Below are positions 42,960 to 55,712 of a DNA stretch of 60,969 nt, one piece after another. The position numbers and the translations under genes are program-made. Source of the stretch: Pseudodesulfovibrio sp. (lineage in GTDB: Bacteria > Desulfobacterota > Desulfovibrionia > Desulfovibrionales > Desulfovibrionaceae); contig JAEINO010000019.1 of assembly GCA_016342345.1 (NCBI GenBank), positions 1 through 60,969 of the forward strand, written 5' to 3'. The notes below the pieces were generated by a model. That model worked only from the letters and a program-made list of their open reading frames with translations, did no database searches and was not told the origin of the DNA. The number at the start of each line of letters is the position of its first letter. Within the stretch, counting starts at the first letter, position 1.

Positions 42960-43694
42960 TTAATGCTTAAAATTGCGCTCCATGATTTCGTCATAAACAC
43001 CGTTAATTTTCAATTGTTCCAATGCTGTTTGCCATTTTTGAATAGTCGAATCCGGTACATCCAGAGAAAAAGCTATCCACGCTGTGGAGCCTGCGAATTT
43101 ACATGTTGTCCGCTCAAAAGAATCAGAATCAATTCCTGCTCTTTTAACCATGTAATAATGGGTTTTTTTTCCCATTAAGACGAGATCGACACGGCCCTCG
43201 GCGAGCTTTTTGAAACTTGTGGAATAGGTCGGGCCGACATCAAGATTCGTGAATCCAGCCGCTGCAAGTGCTTGGTGAGTGTAGCCATCCTTGCGAACCG
43301 CGATTCTTTTCACTTTTTTTGCATCATCAAGAGTCTTTACAACAAGAGGGTTTCCCTTGCGTTTGAAGAAATAGTCATCTTCACCAAAAATTGGTCCAAC
43401 CCATTTGAAGAGGTTTTCACGTTCAGGAATACGAACTATGGCAAAAAGAGCGTGCATGGGTTGCGACTGAGTGTCTTTGAAAGCACGAAGCCATGGGGTG
43501 AGTTCCTGTGTATTTGTATCCTGAACCATAGCTTGAATTTTTGCGACAATTTCCGGAGCAACTCCCTTCAAGTTCCCTGCTTCTTCATAGGCAAGTGGAG
43601 GATACTGAACAACTTTCAAATGCATTTGCTCAGCAAAACTTTGAGTAGGTACGAGAAAAAAGCATAAAGTCAAAAAAACTGACCAGATAGACAC
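42960..43694 (-). CDS. Periplasmic solute-binding protein (SBP_bac_3 family)
   Basis: 244 residues from a GTG at 43694 preceded by GGAGG. A signal peptide ends near SFAEQM. The fold text includes LKVVQYPPLAYEEAGNLKGV, IPERENLFKWVGPI, KRIAVRKDGYTHQALAAAGF and EGRVDLVLMGK. No permease or ATPase gene is adjacent, so it is either an orphan receptor for a remote transporter or a sensing protein. It lies downstream of amiF on the same strand, separated by a terminator, so it is not part of that unit. Confidence 0.85.
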   Translation of the reverse strand: MSIWSVFLTLCFFLVPTQSFAEQMHLKVVQYPPLAYEEAGNLKGVAPEIVAKIQAMVQDTNTQELTPWLRAFKDTQSQPMHALFAIVRIPERENLFKWVGPIFGEDDYFFKRKGNPLVVKTLDDAKKVKRIAVRKDGYTHQALAAAGFTNLDVGPTYSTSFKKLAEGRVDLVLMGKKTHYYMVKRAGIDSDSFERTTCKFAGSTAWIAFSLDVPDSTIQKWQTALEQLKINGVYDEIMERNFKH

Positions 43695-44023: not shown

Positions 44024-45028
44024 CTAGAGGCCGAAGCGTCCACCAGTGGTCGGGTAGCCGTAAATGGAACCGTCTTTGATCTTGATGTCGTCTTCCCAAG
44101 GCAACTCGTATTCACCCTTGGCGAAATCCTTGATCCAGGTGTAGGGGCATTCTTTTACTCCACCGGGAACGGCCACATAACCGCGGGTACCGACGTTGTA
44201 AAGGTTGTTTTCCAGGCCCCAGTCCTTGCGTGCTTGGTCGGCCATCTTCGGGAAAACTTCAGCGGTGACGATTTCCCAAGGATTGCGATGACCCTGTTGA
44301 ATGGTGGTGCCGTCGAAGTTGCAGACCTGACCTTCACCAAAGTAGTAGAAGACGCCATCGTAACCGGCGAGGTTGACGGAAGCGGTGTACATCAGGTTTT
44401 GCCAAGCGTTGGAACGGTTGGTCAATACCCACTGGTCGTTGACCTGAGTGCTGTAACCTGAGATGCGGATGTAGACGTTGCAGCCTTTATAAGCGGCTTC
44501 ACGAGCCTGCTCTGGGAACATGCCGTCATGACAAATGCAGACGGCAAGCTTACTGCCACCGGGACCTTCGCATACGGGCACGCCGAGATCGCCGGGCATC
44601 CAGGGCTCGATGGGAACCCATGGGTTCAGCTTGCGATATTTCAGGGCAAGCTCACCCTTGTTGTTGAAGATTACAGCTGTGTTGTAAGGCATCTGATCTT
44701 TGTTGGGGTTGCGTTCCATGAGAGAGAACAGGCCCCAGATGTCGTTTTCCTTGCAGGTCTGAGCATAGCGCTGGAACAAAGGACCTTCGACATCAAGCAG
44801 GAATTCGTCGCTTACCCACTTCTTTGTGTTCAGGCCTTGCGAGCTGTATTCCGGCCATACGATCAGATCCATGCCAGGATAACCGGCCTTGGTATTAACT
44901 GTAGCTTCGCAAATTCTGTCGATATTTGCTTCGATGTCGCGGCGCGAGTTAACAATGGGCACAGGGTATTGGACCAATCCCATGAGCATACCTTCAGTCG
45001 GTCGATTCATGCTGCCGATGCTTCCCAT
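44024..45028 (-). CDS. amiF: Formamidase
   Basis: 334 residues, exactly the size of Helicobacter AmiF. A nitrilase-superfamily enzyme that hydrolyses formamide to formate and ammonia in the cytoplasm. The catalytic triad falls at the same numbers as AmiF: Glu60 ([11 protein letters not shown]), Lys133 (LKYRKLNPW) and Cys166 ([11 protein letters not shown]). GGAGG precedes the ATG. A sigma-54-like promoter lies at 45121-45135 and tandem activator-type repeats at 45281-45316. The divergent permease-kinase and the downstream FmdB, channel and formate dehydrogenase genes fit formamide use. Confidence 0.95.
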
Positions 45029-45120
45029 TTTAAACCTCCAATTAAATAATGAATTGTTATGAAGATTGCTATCAAGAGCAATCCCTTATACTTGGACTCT
45101 CGAGCGCTCAGCATTTAAAA

Positions 45121-45135
45121 GCCATTATCGTGCCA
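45121..45135 (-). promoter_or_regulatory. Sigma-54 promoter of amiF
   Basis: On the minus strand TGGCACGATAATGGC matches TGGCACG-N4-TTGC with one departure. The predicted start is about 45109, giving an 80-base leader. The sigma-54 partner would be the NtrC-type regulator at 48930. Confidence 0.75.
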
Positions 45136-45280
45136 ACCCGTGTAATTATATTTAATCATCTGATAATATTGAGTTTAATATAAAGCGGTGCTATTCCAGC
45201 AAGCGTTCAGCTTACAAGTATTGTGGTGCAGCCATTGGTCTGGTTTGGAAAAATCCCCGCAGCGAAAGAGATTTTTCAGG

Positions 45281-45316
45281 CTACAATGGTAGTTGTGGCT
45301 ACAACGAAGTTTGTAG
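45281..45316. promoter_or_regulatory. Tandem 18-bp dyad, likely activator binding sites for amiF
   Basis: CTACAA-TGGTAG-TTGTGG (45281-45298) abuts CTACAA-CGAAGT-TTGTAG (45299-45316), two inverted repeats with exact 18-bp period. They lie 172-207 bp upstream of the predicted amiF start, the usual place for NtrC-type enhancer sites. A matching pair lies upstream of fmdB at 50727-50762. Confidence 0.7.
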
Positions 45317-45686
45317 GAGTTCTGACTGACGGGGGCGAAAGAAACATTTTCTCCAGACGAAAAATATGAAAAGTGACCAGATTCAAATAATAAAGCTGCG
45401 AATTTTTTTATCAATAATTCAAGCTGTTTTAATTAATTAAAGCCGATTTGAATCGAGATTGGTAACATGGAATGATTTTTATTTTTTGCAAATATGAGTG
45501 TCAGGTTTGTCTTGTGAATTGTTGGGTTGTCTTTTGCATATGAGGAAACATCGTCAGAATGGAATGCCATAGGCATATTATAGATGACTACCCATCATAA
45601 TGGCGAACTGCACGGTTGTGTATGGAATGCTCTGTGAAGTTGGGAATCAGACTCGCAATTTGGCGGGACAGCATGAAGAAACCAGA

Positions 45687-45740
45687 CTCCTTCGGTGAAG
45701 GAGGCATATGGTTGTCAGTGAGAGCAAGGAGAGAGCGTGA
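45687..45740 (+). promoter_or_regulatory. Hairpin and 10-codon leader ORF controlling the permease-kinase start
   Basis: CTCCTTC-GGT-GAAGGAG (45687-45703) is a perfect 7-bp hairpin that hides the ribosome site GAAGGAGG of a 10-codon ORF (ATG 45708, MVVSESKERA). That ORF's TGA (45738-45740) overlaps the GTG start of the kinase at 45737. The layout suggests translational coupling and possibly RNA-level control. No expression evidence is available. Confidence 0.5.
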
Positions 45741-48700
45741 AGACGTCCAGACAACAGCGTACATATAATTTGCTGGTCACCAATTCGGCCATTGAAGATT
45801 TTTCCCTGCGACGTGTGAGCAAGTCCTTCAGGCGTTGGCCTGAATGGCAGATTGCCAACACCGCACTCGGGGGAATCTCATTTCTTGCCCTGGAAGCAAT
45901 TGGTGCATTACTAATAATCAATTACGGCTTTACCAACTCGGCCTGGGCAATTCTGTCCTTGGGGGTCGTGATTTTTCTAACAGGTATTCCGATTGCTTAT
46001 CACGCATCAAAAGAAAATATTGATATCGACCTGCTAACCCGGGGAGCCGGTTTCGGTTATATCGGGTCCACAATCACATCACTCATATATGCATTTTTCA
46101 CGATAATATTTTTTGCCATTGAAACAACCATAATGGCTCAGGCTGTGTACCTTTGTTTCGGGATTCCCTTGCCGATAGGGTATTTGCTCTGTTCATTGGT
46201 GATCATCCCATTTTCATTTTATGGAATAACCGTCATTAACAAACTGCATAATTATACGCAGTTCCTTTGGTTGTTCCTCTGGATTGTGCCCATAGCCATT
46301 ATTGTTTTCAAAGATCCTGAAAGCATCACCAGATGGATGTCATATGAGAACCATGTCGGTGCTGGGGGATTCGATCCCTTCCTGTTTGGTTCTGCTCTTT
46401 CCGTTCTTTTTTCATTGATTCCACAAATTGGGGAACAGGTTGATTACCTGCGATTTCTTCCAGACAAAACAGATGAAAACAAATTCAAATGGTGGTTGGC
46501 AGTATTGGCCGCCGGACCTGGTTGGATCATAATTGGTGCGTTGAAAATACTTTGCGGAGCCTTTTTGGTCGTCTTGTTCATTGAGTCCGGGAACATAGTT
46601 AGCGGCGAAAACATTGATACAGTTCAGTTATATCTTAATGTATATAAAATGGTTATTGACAATCCGCAGTATGCATTGATGCTTGTGACAGCATATATCA
46701 TTATATGTCAGGTTAAAATAAATGCCACAAATGCCTACGCAGGGTCACTTGCATGGTCGAATTTCTTTTCAAGAATAACGGGTAGCCATCCTGGAAGGGC
46801 TGTCTGGCTTTTGTTCAATATCCTTATGTCGATACTTTTTGCTCAGTTAGGCGTATTCAGAACAATGCATTCAATGCTTTTTATATATGCAATATTTGCA
46901 TTGTCATGGATAGGTACTATTGTTGCTGATCTTACTGTAATAAAACCACTTAAAATAGCCCCTAACATTATCGAATACAAGAGAGCATACCTTTATAACA
47001 TTAATCCAGTTGGAGTTGTTTCTCTTTTTGTTTCTCTTGCAATCGCTATTCCTGCGTATTTCGGATTATTTGGAATTTATGGAAAGTCCTTTTCAACGCT
47101 GATTGCGTTTACTGTTGCATTTATAACCGCTCCATTGGTCGCAATCTTGACAAAAGGAAAATATTACATACGACGTGAAAACAATGTGACAGAGAGTGAT
47201 GATCTTATGTCATGTCCAATTTGTGATAAACAATATGGACAAAGAGAAATGGTATATTGTCCTGTTCGCAAAAATCATATTTGTTCTTTGTGCTGTGTAC
47301 TTGATAGTATTTGTGGTGGAAAGTGTGAAGGTGTGGACTTAAAACGGAAAAAAAGTCGTATCATTTCCTCAAATGAATCTTTAATTAATAAAACAAAAAG
47401 GTTTCTTCAGCACTATTTGGTTATTGCGGTTGTTCTTGGTGTTGTTTTTTCTTCAAGCGTGTTTCTTTCAGAGCATACGGATTATCAGATTTGGCGTAAT
47501 TTCAAATGGTACGTCATTACTCTCTATATTTTTACACTTCTTATTGTTGCTGTATGGGTTTGGTGGTTTACGTTGATCCAAGAGCGTAGAATTGAAGTAG
47601 AGGAAGAGCTCGCTATTCAAATCGAAGAATTGGAACAGGAAGTTCTCGCACGTAAAAGGATTAGCGAAAAGCTGAACAAGACGAGTAGACAACAGAAAAT
47701 GATCTTGGAAAATGCCACAATAGGCATTGCGTTTATCGTTAACTCGACATTGAAGTGGTGCAACAATAGATTTCTTGACATCTGTTTCGTTCCAAGAGGC
47801 ACAAAAAGGCCAATAGCTACAAAGGACCTTTTTCTTGATAAGACCCTGTATTCCAATATTGAACGCGAATCTGAACAGTTTCTCAGGAATGGAGGACATT
47901 TCAATTGTGAAATATCCTTGAAATCAAACCAATCAGTGAGCGAATGGCGCAAGCTCTCCATCAGTGCCATTGATCCTGGTAACCTCAATCAGGGCGTCAT
48001 CTGGCTTCTCAACGATATCAACCGGCAGAAAAATGCAGATAAGGCTTTGAAGGAAAACAGAGAGCGACTAAAGGAATTAAACGAAAACCTTGAGGGTAAA
48101 ATATATCAACGAACCAGGGAGTTGGAGCGAAGCTACAGGTCCTTGCACCAAGCGGACAAAATGGCTTCTCTCGGTATTCTTGTGTCTGGCATGGCGCATG
48201 AAATCAATAATCCATTGAACCTGATTAGTCTTAATTCGCAAACGATGGATGTAATCTGGCAAGGCATGATGGAGTACCTCAAACAACAGAGGCGGGACGA
48301 TGAGGAAATCTGGATTGGAAACATGCCTTTGAGCTATGTGCAGGAAAGTTTGCCCAAGCTTCTTCTTGGTATCAATGAAGGGTCCGAGCGTGTTTCCACC
48401 ATCGTTCGAAATTTGAAGGATTATTCCAAGCAGTCTCCGGTCAAGATGGGAGGCGAGGTGGATCTCAATAAAGCCTTCAAGTCTGCCCACATGCTGCTTA
48501 CCAATCTCATAAAAAACAGTACGGATACTTTTGTCATTAGCATTGATGAGCCTCTTCCTCTTTTTAAAGGCGATTTGCGTCGGATCGAGCAGGTGCTTGT
48601 CAATTTGATTCAGAATTCCTGTCAGGCATTGAAAACGAAAGCAGATTCGATTCTCGTAAAGACCTATGCCGTAGAGGAAAAAGTGTATTTCAAGATTATA

Positions 48701-48901
48701 GACCAGGGAATCGGCATAGCGAAAAGAGATTTGAAGCATGTCCACGACCCATTCTATACGACAAAGCGTGAATGGGGCGGTACAGGTCTCGGGCTATCCG
48801 TTTCAGCCGGAATTATTAAGGAACATGCCGGGGATATCTTTATTGAATCGGAAGAAGGTCAAGGGACAAGTGTAACCCTGTCCTTTACAAGCTCCAATTG
48901 A
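45737..48901 (+). CDS. NCS1-type permease fused to a sensor histidine kinase
   Basis: 1054 residues. Residues about 25-480 form a 12-segment transporter of the NCS1 (cytosine/allantoin/hydantoin) type (YGFTNSAWAILSLGVVIFLT, SLIPQIGEQVDYLRFLPDKT, INATNAYAGSLAWSNFFSRI). A cytoplasmic cysteine cluster (about 490-530, CPICDKQYGQ, CPVRKNHICSLCC, CGGKC) follows, then two more membrane segments (about 555-620), a coiled coil, a PAS-like domain, HisKA (GMAHEINNPLNLISLN) and HATPase (NLIQNSCQAL, GGTGLGLSVSAGI). It probably senses a transported or bound nitrogen compound and phosphorylates the regulator 28 bp downstream. The GTG start has AAGGAG upstream and overlaps a leader ORF. Confidence 0.92.
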   Translation: MKTSRQQRTYNLLVTNSAIEDFSLRRVSKSFRRWPEWQIANTALGGISFLALEAIGALLIINYGFTNSAWAILSLGVVIFLTGIPIAYHASKENIDIDLLTRGAGFGYIGSTITSLIYAFFTIIFFAIETTIMAQAVYLCFGIPLPIGYLLCSLVIIPFSFYGITVINKLHNYTQFLWLFLWIVPIAIIVFKDPESITRWMSYENHVGAGGFDPFLFGSALSVLFSLIPQIGEQVDYLRFLPDKTDENKFKWWLAVLAAGPGWIIIGALKILCGAFLVVLFIESGNIVSGENIDTVQLYLNVYKMVIDNPQYALMLVTAYIIICQVKINATNAYAGSLAWSNFFSRITGSHPGRAVWLLFNILMSILFAQLGVFRTMHSMLFIYAIFALSWIGTIVADLTVIKPLKIAPNIIEYKRAYLYNINPVGVVSLFVSLAIAIPAYFGLFGIYGKSFSTLIAFTVAFITAPLVAILTKGKYYIRRENNVTESDDLMSCPICDKQYGQREMVYCPVRKNHICSLCCVLDSICGGKCEGVDLKRKKSRIISSNESLINKTKRFLQHYLVIAVVLGVVFSSSVFLSEHTDYQIWRNFKWYVITLYIFTLLIVAVWVWWFTLIQERRIEVEEELAIQIEELEQEVLARKRISEKLNKTSRQQKMILENATIGIAFIVNSTLKWCNNRFLDICFVPRGTKRPIATKDLFLDKTLYSNIERESEQFLRNGGHFNCEISLKSNQSVSEWRKLSISAIDPGNLNQGVIWLLNDINRQKNADKALKENRERLKELNENLEGKIYQRTRELERSYRSLHQADKMASLGILVSGMAHEINNPLNLISLNSQTMDVIWQGMMEYLKQQRRDDEEIWIGNMPLSYVQESLPKLLLGINEGSERVSTIVRNLKDYSKQSPVKMGGEVDLNKAFKSAHMLLTNLIKNSTDTFVISIDEPLPLFKGDLRRIEQVLVNLIQNSCQALKTKADSILVKTYAVEEKVYFKIIDQGIGIAKRDLKHVHDPFYTTKREWGGTGLGLSVSAGIIKEHAGDIFIESEEGQGTSVTLSFTSSN

Positions 48902-48929
48902 CTACAATAGATTGTAAATGAGGTGAGTT

Positions 48930-50363
48930 ATGGAAAATCATTTGTACCCTTCCCATCCGATTCTTGTTGTTGATGATGAGAAGTCAGCGTTGCAGAGTTT
49001 TGAAATTGCCTTATACGCGTCTGGTTATTCAAATGTAATTACATGTGAAGACAGTAGACATGTCATGTCTTTGATGGACAAGAAAGAATTCAGTCTTGTC
49101 CTCCTGGACTTGGTGATGCCACACATTGGCGGGCCGGATCTGCTCAAGATGATCAAAGAGAAATTTCCCTGGATTCCTATCATTATTATTTCGGCCGTCA
49201 GCGATGGAAAGTCGGTTATTCAATGCATGAGAGATGGGGCCAGGGACTACCTGTTCAAGCCTGTAGACAAGAATGAACTATCCAACAGGGTGCGCAGCAC
49301 TCTTGAGTTCAAGGATATGGAGCAGGAAAACTCCAGACTTCGCGAACAAATTCTTGAGACTAAGCTGAAGCACCCTGCAAAATTTTCAAGCATTCTCACT
49401 CAAAATCCTAAAATGATTTCCATTTTCAAATATTGCGAAGCTGTGGCCGGTAGTCTGAATCCTATTCTGGTTACTGGAGAAACCGGTACTGGAAAGGAAT
49501 TGATAGCCCAGGCTATTCATAGTTTGAGCATGCGCAGCGGTGAATTTGTCGCGGTTAATGTAGCCGCATTTGATGATCCGATTTTTGCGGATTCATTGTT
49601 TGGGCATGTGCGAGGAGCCTTTACTGGTGCCGACAAGCCGCGCAAGGGGTTGGTTGAGCAGGCTAATGGAGGCACTCTGTTTCTTGATGAAATTGGAGAT
49701 TTGAGTCTGAGTTCGCAGGTCAAACTATTGCGATTGTTGCAGGAGCAGGAGTATTTTCCGGTCGGTTCTGATTTTCCCAAAAAGGCCAATGTGCGTGTGG
49801 TGACTTCAACATTCAGAAATTTGGCAGCCCTGAAGAAAGACGGGAAATTCAGGGAAGATCTGTATTACAGACTTGTAGGGCATCAGGTAAGCCTTCCTCC
49901 GTTGCGTGAAAGGCTTGATGATCTCCCCTTGCTTCTGGATTATTTTCTGGAATGCGAAGCCATTGATCAGGGAAAGGCTAAACCGGCATATCATCCTGAA
50001 CTCAATAATCTTTTACGAACATATTCATTCCCTGGAAATGTGCGTGAGTTGAAGGCCATGGCATGTGATGCGGTGAGCTTGCACAGTTCTCGAATGTTGT
50101 CTTCATCCAGCTTTATGAACCACATTCAATGCGAAGATTCCGTTGGGAGAGTGGTTCCTCACGAAGAAGAAATGGTTTCTTGGGATAATGTGAATTTTCC
50201 GCCTGAAAGTCTCCCCCCCCTCAAGGATGTCGTAACCAGGATATCCACTACACTTATAACTACGGCCATGGAACGAGCAGGAGGAAACCAGAGCGCAGCA
50301 GCGCGAATACTTGGTATTTCGCAGCAGTCCTTGAGCCTTAAACTCAAGAAAATAAAAATCTAA
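48930..50363 (+). CDS. NtrC-family regulator paired with the permease-kinase
   Basis: 477 residues. Receiver 1-125 with LVLLDLVMPHIGGPDLL. AAA+ domain (about 150-385) with Walker A GETGTGKE, the sigma-54 loop RGAFTGA and Walker B GGTLFLDEIGDL. Fis-type helix-turn-helix at the end (NQSAAARILGISQQSLSLKL). GAGGTG precedes the ATG. Likely targets are the sigma-54 promoters of amiF (45121) and fmdB (50902), through the tandem repeats at 45281 and 50727. Confidence 0.93.
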   Translation: MENHLYPSHPILVVDDEKSALQSFEIALYASGYSNVITCEDSRHVMSLMDKKEFSLVLLDLVMPHIGGPDLLKMIKEKFPWIPIIIISAVSDGKSVIQCMRDGARDYLFKPVDKNELSNRVRSTLEFKDMEQENSRLREQILETKLKHPAKFSSILTQNPKMISIFKYCEAVAGSLNPILVTGETGTGKELIAQAIHSLSMRSGEFVAVNVAAFDDPIFADSLFGHVRGAFTGADKPRKGLVEQANGGTLFLDEIGDLSLSSQVKLLRLLQEQEYFPVGSDFPKKANVRVVTSTFRNLAALKKDGKFREDLYYRLVGHQVSLPPLRERLDDLPLLLDYFLECEAIDQGKAKPAYHPELNNLLRTYSFPGNVRELKAMACDAVSLHSSRMLSSSSFMNHIQCEDSVGRVVPHEEEMVSWDNVNFPPESLPPLKDVVTRISTTLITTAMERAGGNQSAAARILGISQQSLSLKLKKIKI

Positions 50364-50457
50364 GCTTTTCCCCTGTGTCTTTGAAAAAGAATGGGCCACC
50401 GCGAGCTTCCATATCTATTCAGAATGGCTTCAGGGTCTGTTTGAGACGTTTTTAGTA

Positions 50458-50486
50458 GGGCAATCCATCTTTCGCGGATGGATTGC
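50458..50486 (+). terminator. Hairpin after the NtrC-type gene
   Basis: GCAATCCATC / GATGGATTGC around a short loop, without a long T-run. Probably ends the permease-kinase/regulator unit. Confidence 0.5.
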
Positions 50487-50726
50487 TCTGTCGCATTATC
50501 CCATCAAGAGAAATTCTGCCAGTTCCTAAGCTTCTTTGATATTCATCAGCATCAATCTTGCGGGTGATTTATCTCCAAGCCTGAAAATTATCCTTAGTTG
50601 ACCAATTTCCATAATCGTATGGGGAGATTGTTGTCGTTCCGAATGCCTGGTGATCATATTATGTCGTCTAATCCGTTTTTTAATGACATTTTTATTTCAA
50701 ATCGGTGGATAGAGCGACTCAACTCC

Positions 50727-50762
50727 TACAAGTATAATTGTAATCACTGTTTTCATTGTGGG
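50727..50762. promoter_or_regulatory. Tandem 18-bp dyad, likely activator binding sites for the fmdB operon
   Basis: CTACAA-GTATAA-TTGTAA (50727-50744) abuts a degenerate copy whose right half TTGTGG is kept (50745-50762). It lies 166-201 bp upstream of the predicted start at 50928, almost the same distance as the pair at amiF. In both places the distal unit is the better dyad. Confidence 0.6.
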
Positions 50763-50901
50763 GGATTAGTCCCTTCAATCCACGCTCGATCCCCTTCCGT
50801 CCTTAAAGCAACAATCCACGTTGTACCCCTTCTTTTGGAAATCAGCCGTATAAATCTTTTTTTATACTTAATAAACAGTATGTTATCAAATTAATTAAAG
50901 T

Positions 50902-50916
50902 TGGTATGGTTGTCGC
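50902..50916 (+). promoter_or_regulatory. Sigma-54-like promoter of the fmdB operon
   Basis: TGGTATGGTTGTCGC keeps GG and GC with exact 10-bp spacing but departs from consensus at three other positions. The predicted start, 50928, is 25 bases before the ATG at 50953. Weak alone, strengthened by the upstream dyads. Confidence 0.5.
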
Positions 50917-50952
50917 AAAGGAGAACAAACAACATCTTTCATGGAGAAGAAT

Positions 50953-51186
50953 ATGCCAATCTACGAGTTGCACTGTAATGGCTGCGGTACAGATTTTGAG
51001 ACACTCGCCTCTTGTAGCGAAGTAACAATTCCATGTGTTCATTGCGGATCAGCCGAAACGCATAGGTACATTTCTCTCTCGTCGTATCGTCACGCGGACC
51101 ATTGGATGAAGAATATGATGGGCGCAATGCACAAGTCTCAAGAACGCGACAAGCTCAAAAAGGAACTGGAAGCTCAAACGTTGTAA
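50953..51186 (+). CDS. FmdB-type zinc ribbon protein
   Basis: 77 residues. MPIYELHCNGCGTDFETLAS with a second CVHCGS gives the CxxC...CxxC ribbon of the FmdB family, named for a gene beside a formamidase in Methylophilus. A charged helical tail follows. The start at 50953 is the conserved Met and has GGAGAAG 6 bases upstream (an ATG at 50941 is unlikely). Proposed regulator or assembly factor; true role unknown. First gene of the channel/FDH operon. Confidence 0.85.
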   Translation: MPIYELHCNGCGTDFETLASCSEVTIPCVHCGSAETHRYISLSSYRHADHWMKNMMGAMHKSQERDKLKKELEAQTL

Positions 51187-51231
51187 ATGCGAATTGCGTA
51201 AACCACTATCTTTTAAGGAGATGTAACGATT

Positions 51232-52224
51232 ATGGACGTGCTGAAAAAAAATCCGTTGTTTGAATTTGTAGACTCGTGCCTGCGCGGATGTGGGCAGGTC
51301 ATGTTTCAGAACAATCCTGTTACAGGATGTATATTTTTCATAGGAATATTCTATAATTCCTGGGAATTGGGAATTTGTGCCGTTCTTGGAACCGCTGCTG
51401 CAACCTTGACTGCAATTGTACTTGGTGCAGAAAAAGGGCTTATCCGGGCTGGGCTGTTCGGATTCAACGGAACTCTCGCAGGTATCGCGTTGCCCTTTTA
51501 CTTTATATATAGCCCTGATTTGTTGATTTACGTGGTTATCAATGCTGCGTTGAGCACTATTATCATGAGTGCGCTCATGAATTTTCTTGGGAAATGGGGC
51601 ATGCCTGCCTTGACTGCACCCTTTGTTCTCGCAACATGGGTTCTCATGTTCTGTGCCTCCAAATTCGGCTTCCTGCAAGCAGGGTCGTTGTTGGCAACAT
51701 CGATTCCCGACCCTCATTCCATGATTGAAGTTGGTACCATTTCGGCGGCCACATTCATGGATGGCGTGACCAAGGGCATAGGCGAGGTCATGTTTGAAGA
51801 CAACGTTGTCACTGGGATCATTTTTGTCATAGCCATTCTCATAAATTCCAGAATATCTGCATTGTTTGCAGTCTTTGGTTCCCTGATCGGCCTGCTCACC
51901 GCTTTGGTCATGCAATCTCCCGAAGCACCTCTTCGCCTTGGGTTGTATGGCTACAACTCAGTTCTTTGTGCCATCGCACTGGGTGGTCTTTTTTATTATC
52001 TCAATTGGAAAACATTTCTCTATGCAACGTTTTGCATGATCATCGGTTCCATAGCTCAGGCATCCATCAGTGTTCTTCTCGCACCAATCGGCATGCCGTC
52101 GCTTACGTGGCCATTTGTTATCGTCACATGGATGTTCATGTTTGCAAGCAAGGGCTTTGTTCACATAGCCGCGGTCCCGGCAGATATGCTCGGAACTCCT
52201 GAAAGCAATCTGAAGCACCCTTAG
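51232..52224 (+). CDS. Urea-transporter (UT) family channel
   Basis: 330 residues made of two homologous halves: [20 protein letters not shown] and [20 protein letters not shown] start them, [18 protein letters not shown] and [18 protein letters not shown] line the pore region, and [13 protein letters not shown] / [13 protein letters not shown] are the paired signature. UT proteins pass urea and small amides down their gradient. No urease genes are visible here; beside formamidase the likely cargo is formamide, perhaps also urea. GGAGATG precedes the ATG. Confidence 0.92.
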
Positions 52225-52365
52225 CATTCGGAGAGAGAGTTTTTGGGGTGAACAGCATGTCTGCAAGAAAGAGTATCGTTCGGCTACAACAAAGGGTTGG
52301 AGATTGATCACCTCATCCAATTTCCAGCCCTTTTTCATCAACTTACTAGAAAGATCAGATGTGCC

Positions 52366-52893
52366 ATGGAAAAAAAACAGTTGACCTACATGTATTGTCC
52401 CAATCCTCGATGTGCTCATTTGAACACGAAGTACGAACCTGAATCGTATTACAACGTGTACTCAATCGAGATGGAAGAGTCGTTGGGTTCGTGTGCCTGT
52501 CCTCATTGCAAAACTGCAATGCGTTCAAGTTGTCCGCACTGCCATCATACTCTTGAGTCCAGGCCTTCAAATTTTTGTCCCTTGTGCGGCGGTTCTTTGA
52601 ATACTGCTCCAGATACTTCTGTTCAGGCTTTGTACTGCCATGAATGTGGCAGGCGTATGTACGGAGATGTTCAGGGGGATATCCCGTTGTGTTCAGAAAA
52701 ATGCATCAGTACTTTTATTACAAAAAACATAAAAACATGTGATCAATGTGGAATGCGGTTTAATTCCAAAGACAACCAATCGCAGAGCTTTACCAAAGTT
52801 CCTGCTGGAGGTGGAATTGATGAATGTTTTGATTTTTGTTCGAAACACTGCATGGAAAAGTACTTTTTGGTTCCCACAAAACAGGCATCTTAG
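52366..52893 (+). CDS. Multi-zinc-ribbon protein of unknown function
   Basis: 175 residues with many CxxC pairs: YCPNPRC, CACPHC, CPHCHH, CPLCGG, CHECGRR with CSEKC, and CDQCGM. The third and fourth quarters look like TRASH/MYM-type metal-binding fingers. No enzyme motif. It lies between the channel and formate dehydrogenase genes in one direction, so it could be a metal or cofactor handling protein for the dehydrogenase, or a regulator like FmdB. The start at 52366 is chosen as first ATG; a TTG farther upstream is possible. Confidence 0.75.
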   Translation: MEKKQLTYMYCPNPRCAHLNTKYEPESYYNVYSIEMEESLGSCACPHCKTAMRSSCPHCHHTLESRPSNFCPLCGGSLNTAPDTSVQALYCHECGRRMYGDVQGDIPLCSEKCISTFITKNIKTCDQCGMRFNSKDNQSQSFTKVPAGGGIDECFDFCSKHCMEKYFLVPTKQAS

Positions 52894-52949
52894 TCGGATA
52901 CTGTAATCTCAAAAGTAAATATATATTCAGATAATACAAAGGACAGCCA

Positions 52950-55712
52950 ATGCGACATGTTATATTTAATAATAAGAAAGTGGAATTTACAGAGAATCAG
53001 ACGCTTTTGGACACCGCATCCGTTGCGGGAATCAACATACCAACGCTGTGTCAGGGTGATACCTGTTATTGTAGTAGCAGCTGTGGGTTGGGAATTGCCG
53101 AGAATGTTGACACAGGAGAACTGATCTCCACATGTACGACATTGGCCACGGAAGGAATGAATATTTCAACCGAGTCCACCAAGGTCTTTGAAGCCCGAAG
53201 AGAAAAGCTTATTTCCATATTCTCCAAAGGAGCCCACAACTGTTTCACAGCTCGGCTTCCGGAAGGAAAATGTGCTCCAGGGCATCTTGAAGCCAGGGAA
53301 TTGGAATGGCACGAGCAGGAGTGCCCTGCAAAGGGAACCTGTACTCTTCAGAAATTGGCAGGGAAACACAAAGTTCCTGTAATGGATATTCCCCTGAAGA
53401 TCGAGACACCGGTTGTTGATAATCGTTCTCCCTTCATTGCCCGCGACTATAGTCGTTGCATCAAATGCGGCCAATGCATCTCTGTTTGTCAGGATATTGG
53501 GCAGAATGCCATTTCTCGATGTTCCTACAATGGCACCTGGCATCCGACGGTTGACATTGAAAAATGTACCCATTGTGGACAATGCCTTGAAGCGTGCCCT
53601 GTTGGTGCTCTTTTTGACAAGAAAGCATTCGGCATAGCCAAGAAGAAGGTCACGAAGGTCCAGACGACGTGCCCATATTGCGGAACTGGCTGCCAACTAC
53701 AACTTCACGTCAAGGATGAAAAGATCATCAAGGTCACGGCAGATGAAGATGTTGCCCCAAACATGGGACGATTGTGCGTAAAGGGTCGTTTCGGCTATGA
53801 CTTCATTTATTCGGAAAACCGTCTCAAGACACCCCTTATCAAGGAAGATGGTAAATTCAGGGAGGCATCCTGGGACGAAGCTCTTGATTTGGTGGCCTCC
53901 AAATTTATTGAGGTACGTGAAGAATATGGCCCAGACGCCATTGCAGGCCTCAGTTGTGCTCGGAGCATAACCGAAGACTCATACAACATGCAGAAACTCT
54001 TCAGGGCAACGATAGGTACCAATAATATCGATCATTGCGCACGAACCTGACACGCTCCTTCTGTCGTCGGTCTGACGACAATGCTGGGTTCTGGTGCAAT
54101 GTCCAATAGTTTTGAAGATATTGAAAAAGCGAAAACAATTCTTGTCATTGGTTCGAACATGACTGTGGCCCATCCTGTGGTTGCAACGTTTGTTCATAAT
54201 GCTGTCCAAAATGGTTCAAAGCTGGTTGTCATTGATCCTCGGGCAACCAAGCTTACGGAATGGGCGGACATGCATTTGCGGTTAAAGGTTGGCTCTGATG
54301 TTGCGTTGATCAATTCCATCATGAATGTTTTGATAGCGGAAGGTCTGTACGACAAACAATATGTAGAACAGTGGGCAGATGGATTTGCCGAACTCAAGGA
54401 AACCGTACTTCGATATCCTCCGGAAGATACGGAAAAGATCACCGGAGTTCCGGCTGAACAGGTTGTCAGTCTTGCGAGGCTGTTGGCTCAATCCAAACCC
54501 GCGATGCTTATGTATACCCTTGGCATAACCGAGCATACTTCTGGCGTTCACAACGTGTTCAGTTGTGCAAATCTGCAACTTCTGCTTGGAAATATTGGTG
54601 TACCAGGTGGTGGTGTCAACCCTTTGCGAGGTCAAAATAATGTCCAGGGAGCCTGTGACGCCGGCGCTTTGCCGGATTCCTTTCCCGGATATGAAAAGGT
54701 CGATGACCCGGTTGCCCGCAGGAAGTTTCAGAAAGCGTGGAATGTCAGCAATCTCCTTGGCTATGAGGGGTTGCGGCTTCCTGCGATGCTTGAAGGTCTT
54801 AAAACGAAAAAAGTCCGTGCATTTTATGTTTTTGGTGAAGATCCGGCTACAACCGAGCCTGACATGCATCATGTCCACGACTGCCTTTCGTCCGCGGAGT
54901 TCATGGTTTGCAACGATATCTTCCCGACGAAAACTACTGAGTTTGCGGATGTGGTGTTCCCTTCGGCTGCCTGGAGCGAAGACGATGGGACTTTCACCAA
55001 TACGGAACGTCGAGTGAATCGGGTACGAAAGGTGTCACCTCCTCCAGGGGTAGCGCGGCCGAACTGGTGGATTTTCCGTGAGTTGGCCAAACGCATGGGA
55101 GACACCTGGGCTTCCTCCTGTGCCAAGGATATCTGGGACAATGAAATGGCTCCACAATGTTCGATGCTTAATGGAATCACGTATGACCGGTTGGAGAAGG
55201 AGTCCTTGCAATGGCCGGTTCCTCATGCTCTTCATCCCGGTACGCCACATCTCTTCAAAGACACGGCACATCTGTATCGTGATGTCAGATTTACGCAGGG
55301 GCGGGCCCATTTTAAAGCCATCGACTGGACTCCGTCAGCAGAAATTCCTGACGAGCAGTATCCGTTTGTACTGAGTACCGGCAGAAGACTTTACCATTAC
55401 AATTGTAGTTCGCAAACAGCCAACGCGGTGGGACTCAACGACTTGTTGAGTGAGGAGATTGTCGACATCTCACCTGAAGATGCCAAGCGATTTGGTTTTG
55501 GAACAGATGATATGATTCAACTCACAACAAGGCGCGGCAGTATTACAGTCCGGGCAAAAGTGACGGATGAGGTTCCCAAAGGAATGGTTTGGATGGCTTT
55601 CCATTTCTATAAGAATAATTCGAACTGGCTGACGAACTCCGCAGCAGATCCGATTTCGGACACGGCTGAGTATAAGTCCTGCGCCGTCAGAATCGATTAT
55701 CCTGCGGTCTGA
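52950..55712 (+). CDS. fdhA: Selenocysteine formate dehydrogenase, NuoG-like type
   Basis: 920 residues read through an in-frame TGA at 54048-54050 decoded as selenocysteine (HCART-U-HAPSVVG, the active-site context of FDH). Order: [2Fe-2S] ferredoxin-like head (CQGDTCYCSSSC), a NuoG-type cluster region (HEQECPAKGTC), two [4Fe-4S] sites (CIKCGQCISVC, CTHCGQCLEAC), the FDH cluster (CPYCGTGC), then the molybdopterin domains and C-terminal cap. No signal peptide, so cytoplasmic. It oxidises formate to CO2 with Mo or W-bis-MGD. The electron partner is not encoded beside it. A standard gene caller will split or truncate it at the TGA. Confidence 0.93.
54048..54083 (+). promoter_or_regulatory. SECIS element directing selenocysteine insertion
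   Basis: Eleven bases after the TGA, TGTCGTC (54062-54068) and GACGACA (54074-54080) pair around the loop GGTCT, the same loop motif as the E. coli fdhF SECIS. Distance and loop fit SelB binding. Confidence 0.92.

Follow-up and report, generated by a model that had tools for sequence, protein, structure and literature searches.

In the fmd operon of Methylophilus an FmdB protein is encoded alongside a formamidase, but that enzyme is of the FmdA type, unrelated to the AmiF type considered here. Closer to our subject is a regulon of Desulfovibrio vulgaris Hildenborough, in which the two-component sigma-54 regulator DVU1156, said to be without orthologues in Desulfovibrio, was assigned to the annotated formamidase DVU1164 under 'amide metabolism' (Kazakov et al. 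2015, PMC4641369). The accessible part of that source gives the pair alone, with no kinase, channel, FmdB, formate dehydrogenase (FDH) or operator sequence, and no functional prediction for DVU1156 appears in the accessible part of an earlier account (Rajeev et al. 2011, PMC3333781). According to an excerpt of a further study, formamide can supply D. vulgaris with nitrogen; urea, which was also tried, does not appear in the list of nine sources (PMC10102598). Here we describe a locus in a 60,969 nt stretch of Pseudodesulfovibrio sp. (contig JAEINO010000019.1; the whole stretch is hereafter the window). It likewise combines a sigma-54 regulator with a formamidase gene, amiF, but adds a permease/histidine kinase fusion, FmdB, a UT-family channel, a zinc-ribbon protein and a selenocysteine FDH. 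A sequence-only reading of this DNA had known no description of the combination. As a whole we did not find it either, by title or abstract start, in the open-access literature, although the regulator-formamidase pair is in print (PMC4641369, in the part available).

We read the locus, with a probability of roughly 0.78, as an inducible module for formamide and possibly other short amides. The genome evidence supports the dedicated system for sensing, entry and hydrolysis that the sequence-only reading had proposed, linked to formate handling. In the proposed mechanism the fusion protein would bind an amide in its permease domain and signal to the sigma-54 regulator, which would bind ACAA-N6-TTGT palindromes and activate two sigma-54 promoters, one of amiF and one of the unit fmdB-UT-zinc ribbon-FDH. 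Formamide would enter via the UT channel and be split by AmiF into ammonia, a nitrogen source, and formate. In the genus of the window the FDH, probably co-transcribed, would oxidise formate to CO2, so that a toxic product is removed and electrons are gained; in the sister genera formate would instead be moved by an MFS transporter of monocarboxylate type encoded at the locus. This would make a complete and testable formamide regulon, from sensor through formate disposal. New here are the extent of the module, its putative operator, a formamidase-linked UT class that includes the crystallised dvUT, and the exchange of FDH for a transporter. The strongest of the new points, in our view, are the exchange, the shared operator and the proposed link of short amides to both the dvUT class and the permease-kinase family.

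Gene content and co-occurrence

Family calls were made by Pfam and NCBIfam model scans, each judged against its own cut-off. The gene order is amiF on the minus strand, then on the plus strand the permease-kinase, regulator, fmdB, UT channel, zinc-ribbon and FDH genes, with the following features:

44024..45028, minus strand: amiF, formamidase of the nitrilase superfamily, AmiF type (NF009803, 605 bits, cut-off 406)
45120..45135, minus strand: sigma-54-type -24/-12 site of amiF, TGGCACGATAATGGCT (11 of 12 consensus positions)
45282-45297 and 45300-45315: two neighbouring operator-like palindromes upstream of amiF (ACAA-N6-TTGT)
45737..48901, plus strand: permease/histidine kinase fusion, with NCS1-like permease domain, Cys-rich linker, HisKA and HATPase_c
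48930..50363, plus strand: NtrC/AtoC-type sigma-54 response regulator (PF00072, PF00158, PF02954; GAFTGA in the translation)
50727..50742: operator-like palindrome upstream of fmdB, TACAAGTATAATTGTA
50810..50825: second operator-like palindrome upstream of fmdB, AACAATCCACGTTGTA
50902..50917, plus strand: sigma-54-type site of the fmdB operon, TGGTATGGTTGTCGCA (9 of 12 positions)
50953..51186, plus strand: fmdB-type zinc ribbon protein (TIGR02605, 42 bits, cut-off 31; PF09723; in 8 of 8 loci)
51232..52224, plus strand: UT-family channel, dvUT class (TIGR03441, 290 bits, cut-off 275; PF03253, 330 bits)
52297..52893, plus strand: zinc-ribbon protein (first ATG 52366)
52950..55712, plus strand: predicted selenocysteine formate dehydrogenase without visible export signal (TIGR01591, 806 bits, cut-off 666; UGA at 54048-54050)
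54063..54079, plus strand: hairpin resembling a selenocysteine insertion sequence (SECIS), GGUCU loop, after the UGA (predicted in a 5-sequence alignment)

Every gene named in the sequence-only reading was recovered in its place by open frames and domain scans, including the likely fmdB start at 50953 (the longest frame opens at 50941). The gene it called a zinc-finger protein is present, but no Pfam or NCBIfam model scored above cut-off for it; a relative with 30-71% identity occurs in all 7 other module loci. With a receiver, a Sigma54_activat domain (AAA+ with GAFTGA) and HTH_8, the regulator carries the full set of a sigma-54 enhancer-binding protein.

Co-occurrence was scored in an even sample of 199 genomes of the order, of which 180 have a completeness of 90% or more and no more than 5% contamination. 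amiF was found in 8 of the 199 (E 1e-60 or better) and the permease domain in the identical set of eight (E 1e-5 or better). A UT was found in 13 (E 1e-20 or better), those of the amiF genomes being 65-100% identical and those of the other five 36-40%. Genes for AmiF, FmdB, UT, zinc ribbon, permease-kinase and regulator lie side by side in 8/8 loci, in two layouts. The layout of the window, FDH included, is shared by 5 of 25 same-genus genomes (its own counted), while G049, G082 and G149, from two other genera, have all module genes on one strand, an MFS transporter gene straight after amiF and no FDH at the locus. Co-occurrence in relatives, on which the sequence-only reading had staked its case, was thus found for the module genes in every amiF genome and for FDH in five of the eight. 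Since the same neighbours recur in all of them, the arrangement goes beyond chance; the eight genomes are nevertheless related, G178 and G198 being nearly identical at the locus, so that 8/8 does not stand for eight independent events, even with three genera and two layouts represented.

Promoters and putative operator

Sigma-54-like sites were scored over 12 consensus positions and compared with crude shuffles in two-letter blocks. Such a site lies 81-92 nt before the amiF ATG in 8/8 genomes, with 11/12 positions in seven and 10/12 in G049 (shuffle values 0 to 0.028). Before fmdB a site with 9-11 of 12 positions lies 22-35 nt from the start used, again in 8/8 genomes, the weakest being those of the window and G168 (shuffle value 0.068). 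The sigma-54-like promoters that had been proposed before both arms thus recur, as promoter-like sites, at conserved positions. No comparable promoter could be assigned to the permease-kinase gene: the best candidates reach 9/12 in the five same-genus loci (shuffle values 0.09-0.13), and the other three loci have 8/12 or none.

The palindrome ACAA-N6-TTGT occurs at least once in each of the 16 regions upstream of amiF and fmdB, further upstream than the sigma-54-like sites. Over the eight stretches it was counted 28 times in 7,746 nt of these regions and 5 times in 187,230 nt elsewhere, the pattern having been derived from the very sequences it was counted in; other palindrome spacings tested (2-13) gave 0-4 upstream sites. 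We infer that the palindrome is a putative operator of the sigma-54 regulator and that the regulon would consist of the amiF unit and the fmdB unit. The 4.15 Mb genome has five occurrences of the exact form TACAA-N6-TTGTA, two of them at the amiF and fmdB promoters. Of the other three, two fall within open frames, and one of these two has a sigma-54-like match (9/12) roughly 500 nt off, the only such match within 600 nt of any of the three; the last, with no such match, precedes an unrelated 151-aa frame by 24 nt. Among exact operator sites genome-wide there was therefore no convincing further member of the regulon.

Several points weigh against the module reading, beside the relatedness of the genomes and the origin of the operator pattern. 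Sigma-54 consensus matches are as frequent in the window (20) as expected by chance (20.4), for which reason the support for the sites rests on their conserved position. A reversed control pattern occurs 12 times genome-wide, compared with 5 for the exact operator, so that the count alone is not unusual. The AlphaFold2 model of the permease domain was unusable (predicted local distance difference test score 43.5), and the ligand of the sensor could be urea, as relatives of the domain also sit with urease. Lastly, DVU1164 mutants of D. vulgaris are described as having no phenotype in the portion of the source available (PMC10102598), for which reason formamidase may be redundant in that organism.

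Handling of formate

The FDH gene has one in-frame TGA, at codon 367, and the UGA is kept in 5/5 loci having the gene. The genome encodes a tRNA-Sec (76 bits, gathering threshold 47), and the SECIS-like hairpin has a stem that is invariant in the 5 sequences, hence no covariation signal to read. By this coding evidence the protein is a selenocysteine formate dehydrogenase. No export signal was seen by eye at its N-terminus.

The step after formate release differs between genera. Five of the eight loci encode FDH and the remaining three an MFS transporter, with no locus having both; the FDH which the sequence-only reading had placed in the system is thus a member of it in one genus and is replaced in the rest. 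Two of the three transporters were scanned; they match the L-lactate transporter model NF049980 (409-417 bits, cut-off 320) and fall below the oxalate/formate family cut-off. The third shares 94% identity with one of these two. No match to the transporter was found in the window or the four other FDH stretches, the locus stretches being what was searched. We infer that this monocarboxylate-type transporter would carry formate, which would give one conserved module two alternative routes for formate.

The surroundings of five homologues of the FDH were read (41-55% identity; G193, G099, G166, G046 and G171). In G193 and G099 the FDH is preceded by a protein of 624-628 aa with NuoF-type 4Fe-4S, Fer4_20 and pyridine-nucleotide oxidoreductase domains, and in G046 it is followed by two frames that are NuoE/NuoF-like by eye; no NAD(P)-subunit-like neighbour was seen in G171. 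The window FDH has no flavin/NAD(P) subunit or electron-transfer partner gene adjacent. Its N-terminal [2Fe-2S] cysteine set (residues 34-62) is altered as well, Cys48 missing in 5/5 sequences and Cys62 in 4/5, with two extra cysteines at positions 39 and 41 in all five; the change is relative to homologues of about 54% identity, two of which have an adjacent NAD(P) subunit gene. An NAD(P)-linked enzyme was accordingly set aside, and because of the absent adjoining subunit and the changed cysteines the acceptor is probably a different one. Relatives of the NAD(P) subunit do exist elsewhere in the genome, the best in an Rnf-like cluster, but they show no link to the FDH and were not retained as partners. 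The stretch with this best match holds a 740-aa frame (L132, 4841-7063) with an RnfB-like start by eye, a possible fusion.

We put forward as a hypothesis that formamide is used as electron donor. Formate is a common electron donor of sulfate reducers, and its oxidation would yield electrons in any case. Both points count against the most serious rival, that FDH serves to detoxify formate during nitrogen scavenging rather than to gain energy, a view we regard as a strong contender yet as rather less probable than its opposite. In its favour are the missing adjacent partner gene and altered cysteine pattern just described, the transporter of the sister genera, which could do no more than move formate, and engineered bacteria in which the formate released from formamide is inhibitory to growth, an effect relieved by FDH (PMC10781810, as far as the source was accessible).

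Enzyme, sensor and channel

AmiF matches the solved formamidases 2dyu and 5g3o over its full length and holds E60, K133 and C166, which we take to be the catalytic residues. It scores 605 bits against the formamidase model (cut-off 406) and 234 against the aliphatic amidase model (cut-off 427), and on this comparison it is assigned to the formamidases. The same scores, and the attached FDH, which suits formate as product, make it improbable that the natural substrate is a different short amide, for instance acetamide, or several amides of which formamide is just one. That view draws on a linked locus elsewhere (L137, see below) that includes an aliphatic amidase gene, and on the slow cleavage of other short amides by some formamidases (PMC10781810, accessible part).

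That FDH lies downstream by accident and serves general formate metabolism we judge a shade less probable still. FDH is not in the module in three loci, and its family is common (70/199 genomes at E 1e-150). Against this, orthologues of 83-87% identity were confined to the remaining four module genomes of the genus, in the same place, the next reaching 55% (no more than four candidates per genome being scored). In addition, just 56 nt separate the zinc-ribbon frame from FDH, the consensus scan gave no plus-strand sigma-54-like match between UT and FDH, and the transporter gene of the three other loci could serve formate too.

The sensor had been called a fusion of an NCS1 permease and a histidine kinase. 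The kinase part holds (HisKA, HATPase_c), whereas the NCS1 assignment fails at Pfam level and is recovered by profile-profile comparison. Neither PF02133 (NCS1) nor any other Pfam transporter family matched the permease part of the window even at E 10; PF02133 gave no match at E 1 in three relatives, at E 0.1 in five plasmid relatives, or in a search of the own genome. NCBIfam models did not name the domain in the sequences scanned, apart from a cytosine permease match far below cut-off in one standalone relative. Compared with a profile of 14 NCS1 sequences, however, the domain reached 93.8-96.2% probability over 315-373 columns, as against less than 1% for control profiles of SSF (2 rows), MFS (3 rows) and UT (14 rows); single NCS1 sequences gave just 0.1-9.1% in 14/14 cases. 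There was no similarity to two SSF proteins. In CbrA of Pseudomonas putida a transporter domain is likewise fused to a sensor kinase that works with a response regulator, but the domain there is of the SLC5 type and concerns L-histidine (PMC7096432, in the part consulted).

The permease domain is rare in Desulfobacterota at large (2/395 genomes, both Desulfovibrionaceae). Among 72,556 plasmid records, 527 match it, 522 over at least 80% of the domain, with 342 from Klebsiella and 78 from Sinorhizobium. Thirteen plasmid loci (L133-L145, one with two permease copies) were chosen for annotation and variety. They come from Alphaproteobacteria, Moraxellaceae and Klebsiella and carry the same domain at 41-49% identity. 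In 12/13 the domain has urt, urease or formamidase genes alongside, so that urea or short amides are its most likely ligands. The sole negative is L136, which lacks annotated features and gave no match to UrtA, UreC, FmdA or AmiF. Two loci (Thioclava, Klebsiella) encode an AmiF 65-66% identical to that of the window, two loci have a standalone permease next to formamidase and fmdB, and one has such a permease next to urease. Like the module, the fused plasmid loci combine kinase and regulator; unlike it, the plasmid loci have an ABC transporter in 9/13, no UT match in any and no FDH match. In L141, a Klebsiella variicola plasmid (3894-13366), the permease-kinase adjoins urtABCDE and the AmiF of 66% identity. 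In L137, a Methylovirgula plasmid (3287-9620), a fused and a standalone permease lie between fmdB-formamidase and the aliphatic amidase gene. A likely role in urea or short-amide sensing is thereby suggested for a domain that is unnamed in Pfam and NCBIfam and present in 527 plasmid records.

In an unrooted tree the Desulfovibrionaceae permease domain groups with standalone permeases (support 1.000), apart from the fused proteobacterial ones. The kinase parts of the window and the plasmid fusions are 23-28% identical where matched (L140 gave no match), and the partner regulators in five plasmid loci are LuxR-type by eye, against sigma-54 in the module. On these three grounds two separate permease-kinase fusions are likely, the alternative being kinase loss. 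At the junction of permease and kinase lie eight cysteines (CxxC...C...CSLCC...C...C, residues 493-530), invariant in 6 aligned sequences, with the core from CxxC to CSLC retained in 10/12 aligned plasmid relatives; the segment may bind metal and provide a second sensor input. The permease-kinase gene of G168 (L041, near 13755) is split over two overlapping frames, by frameshift or sequencing error.

The UT of the window is 66% identical to dvUT of D. vulgaris (3me1; also 3k3f), those of G149 and G082 80-81%, and dvUT falls within the clade of module UTs. dvUT is presumably DVU1160, a tag for which no open paper was found; this would place it inside the DVU1156-DVU1164 run. It resembles the window UT in clade and differs in having been named and studied for urea. 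The dvUT class (n=9 including dvUT) was compared with 12 other UTs, 5 from Desulfovibrionaceae and 7 from 15 plasmid records. Of these others 10/12 lie near urease and 2/12 (L146, L151) near neither urease nor formamidase. Urease alpha over cut-off occurs in 21/199 genomes, including 5/5 of those with a distant UT, where the two genes lie 3-4 kb apart. It occurs in 0/8 module genomes, where G157 has one 26-bit match (cut-off 680). The module's dvUT-class UTs are thus found together with formamidase, in genomes that have no urease over cut-off, and because of this genome context we assign the channel to formamide, which it probably serves.

E187 and F190 of dvUT are described, in the part of the source available, as belonging to the outer pore site (PMC4357013). 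The pair is found in 9/9 class members and 0/12 others, which may reflect ancestry. E187 by itself separates the nine from the 5 urease-linked Desulfovibrionaceae UTs. A single pore residue was rejected as substrate marker, as a urease-linked Providencia UT also has E187 and F190 is found in 5/12 non-class UTs.

A module whose sensor and channel serve urea, with AmiF incidental, is suggested by the UT family name, the TIGR03441 equivalog and the company of the permease family in other bacteria (urtABCDE in 9/13 loci, urease in 4/13, by annotation), but it is very improbable given the absence of urease alpha over cut-off from the module genomes, that of urea from the accessible list for D. vulgaris (PMC10102598), and amiF beside the dvUT-class channel in 8/8 loci.

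More tentatively, at somewhat under an even chance, the formamide reading extends to a joint claim: that the dvUT class, crystallised D. vulgaris protein included, consists of natural formamide channels, and that an unnamed NCS1-like urea/short-amide permease family was separately recruited as sensor of two kinase kinds, working with a sigma-54 regulator here and LuxR-type regulators in other Proteobacteria. A protein of known structure that is called a urea transporter may then serve formamide.

Downstream of amiF the window also holds a gene for a family-3 solute-binding protein (42960-43694), with no match in the stretches of the relatives. The nearest named locus is that of the metagenome-assembled genome Pseudodesulfovibrio sp. 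OB3, whose kinase fusion is 88% identical.

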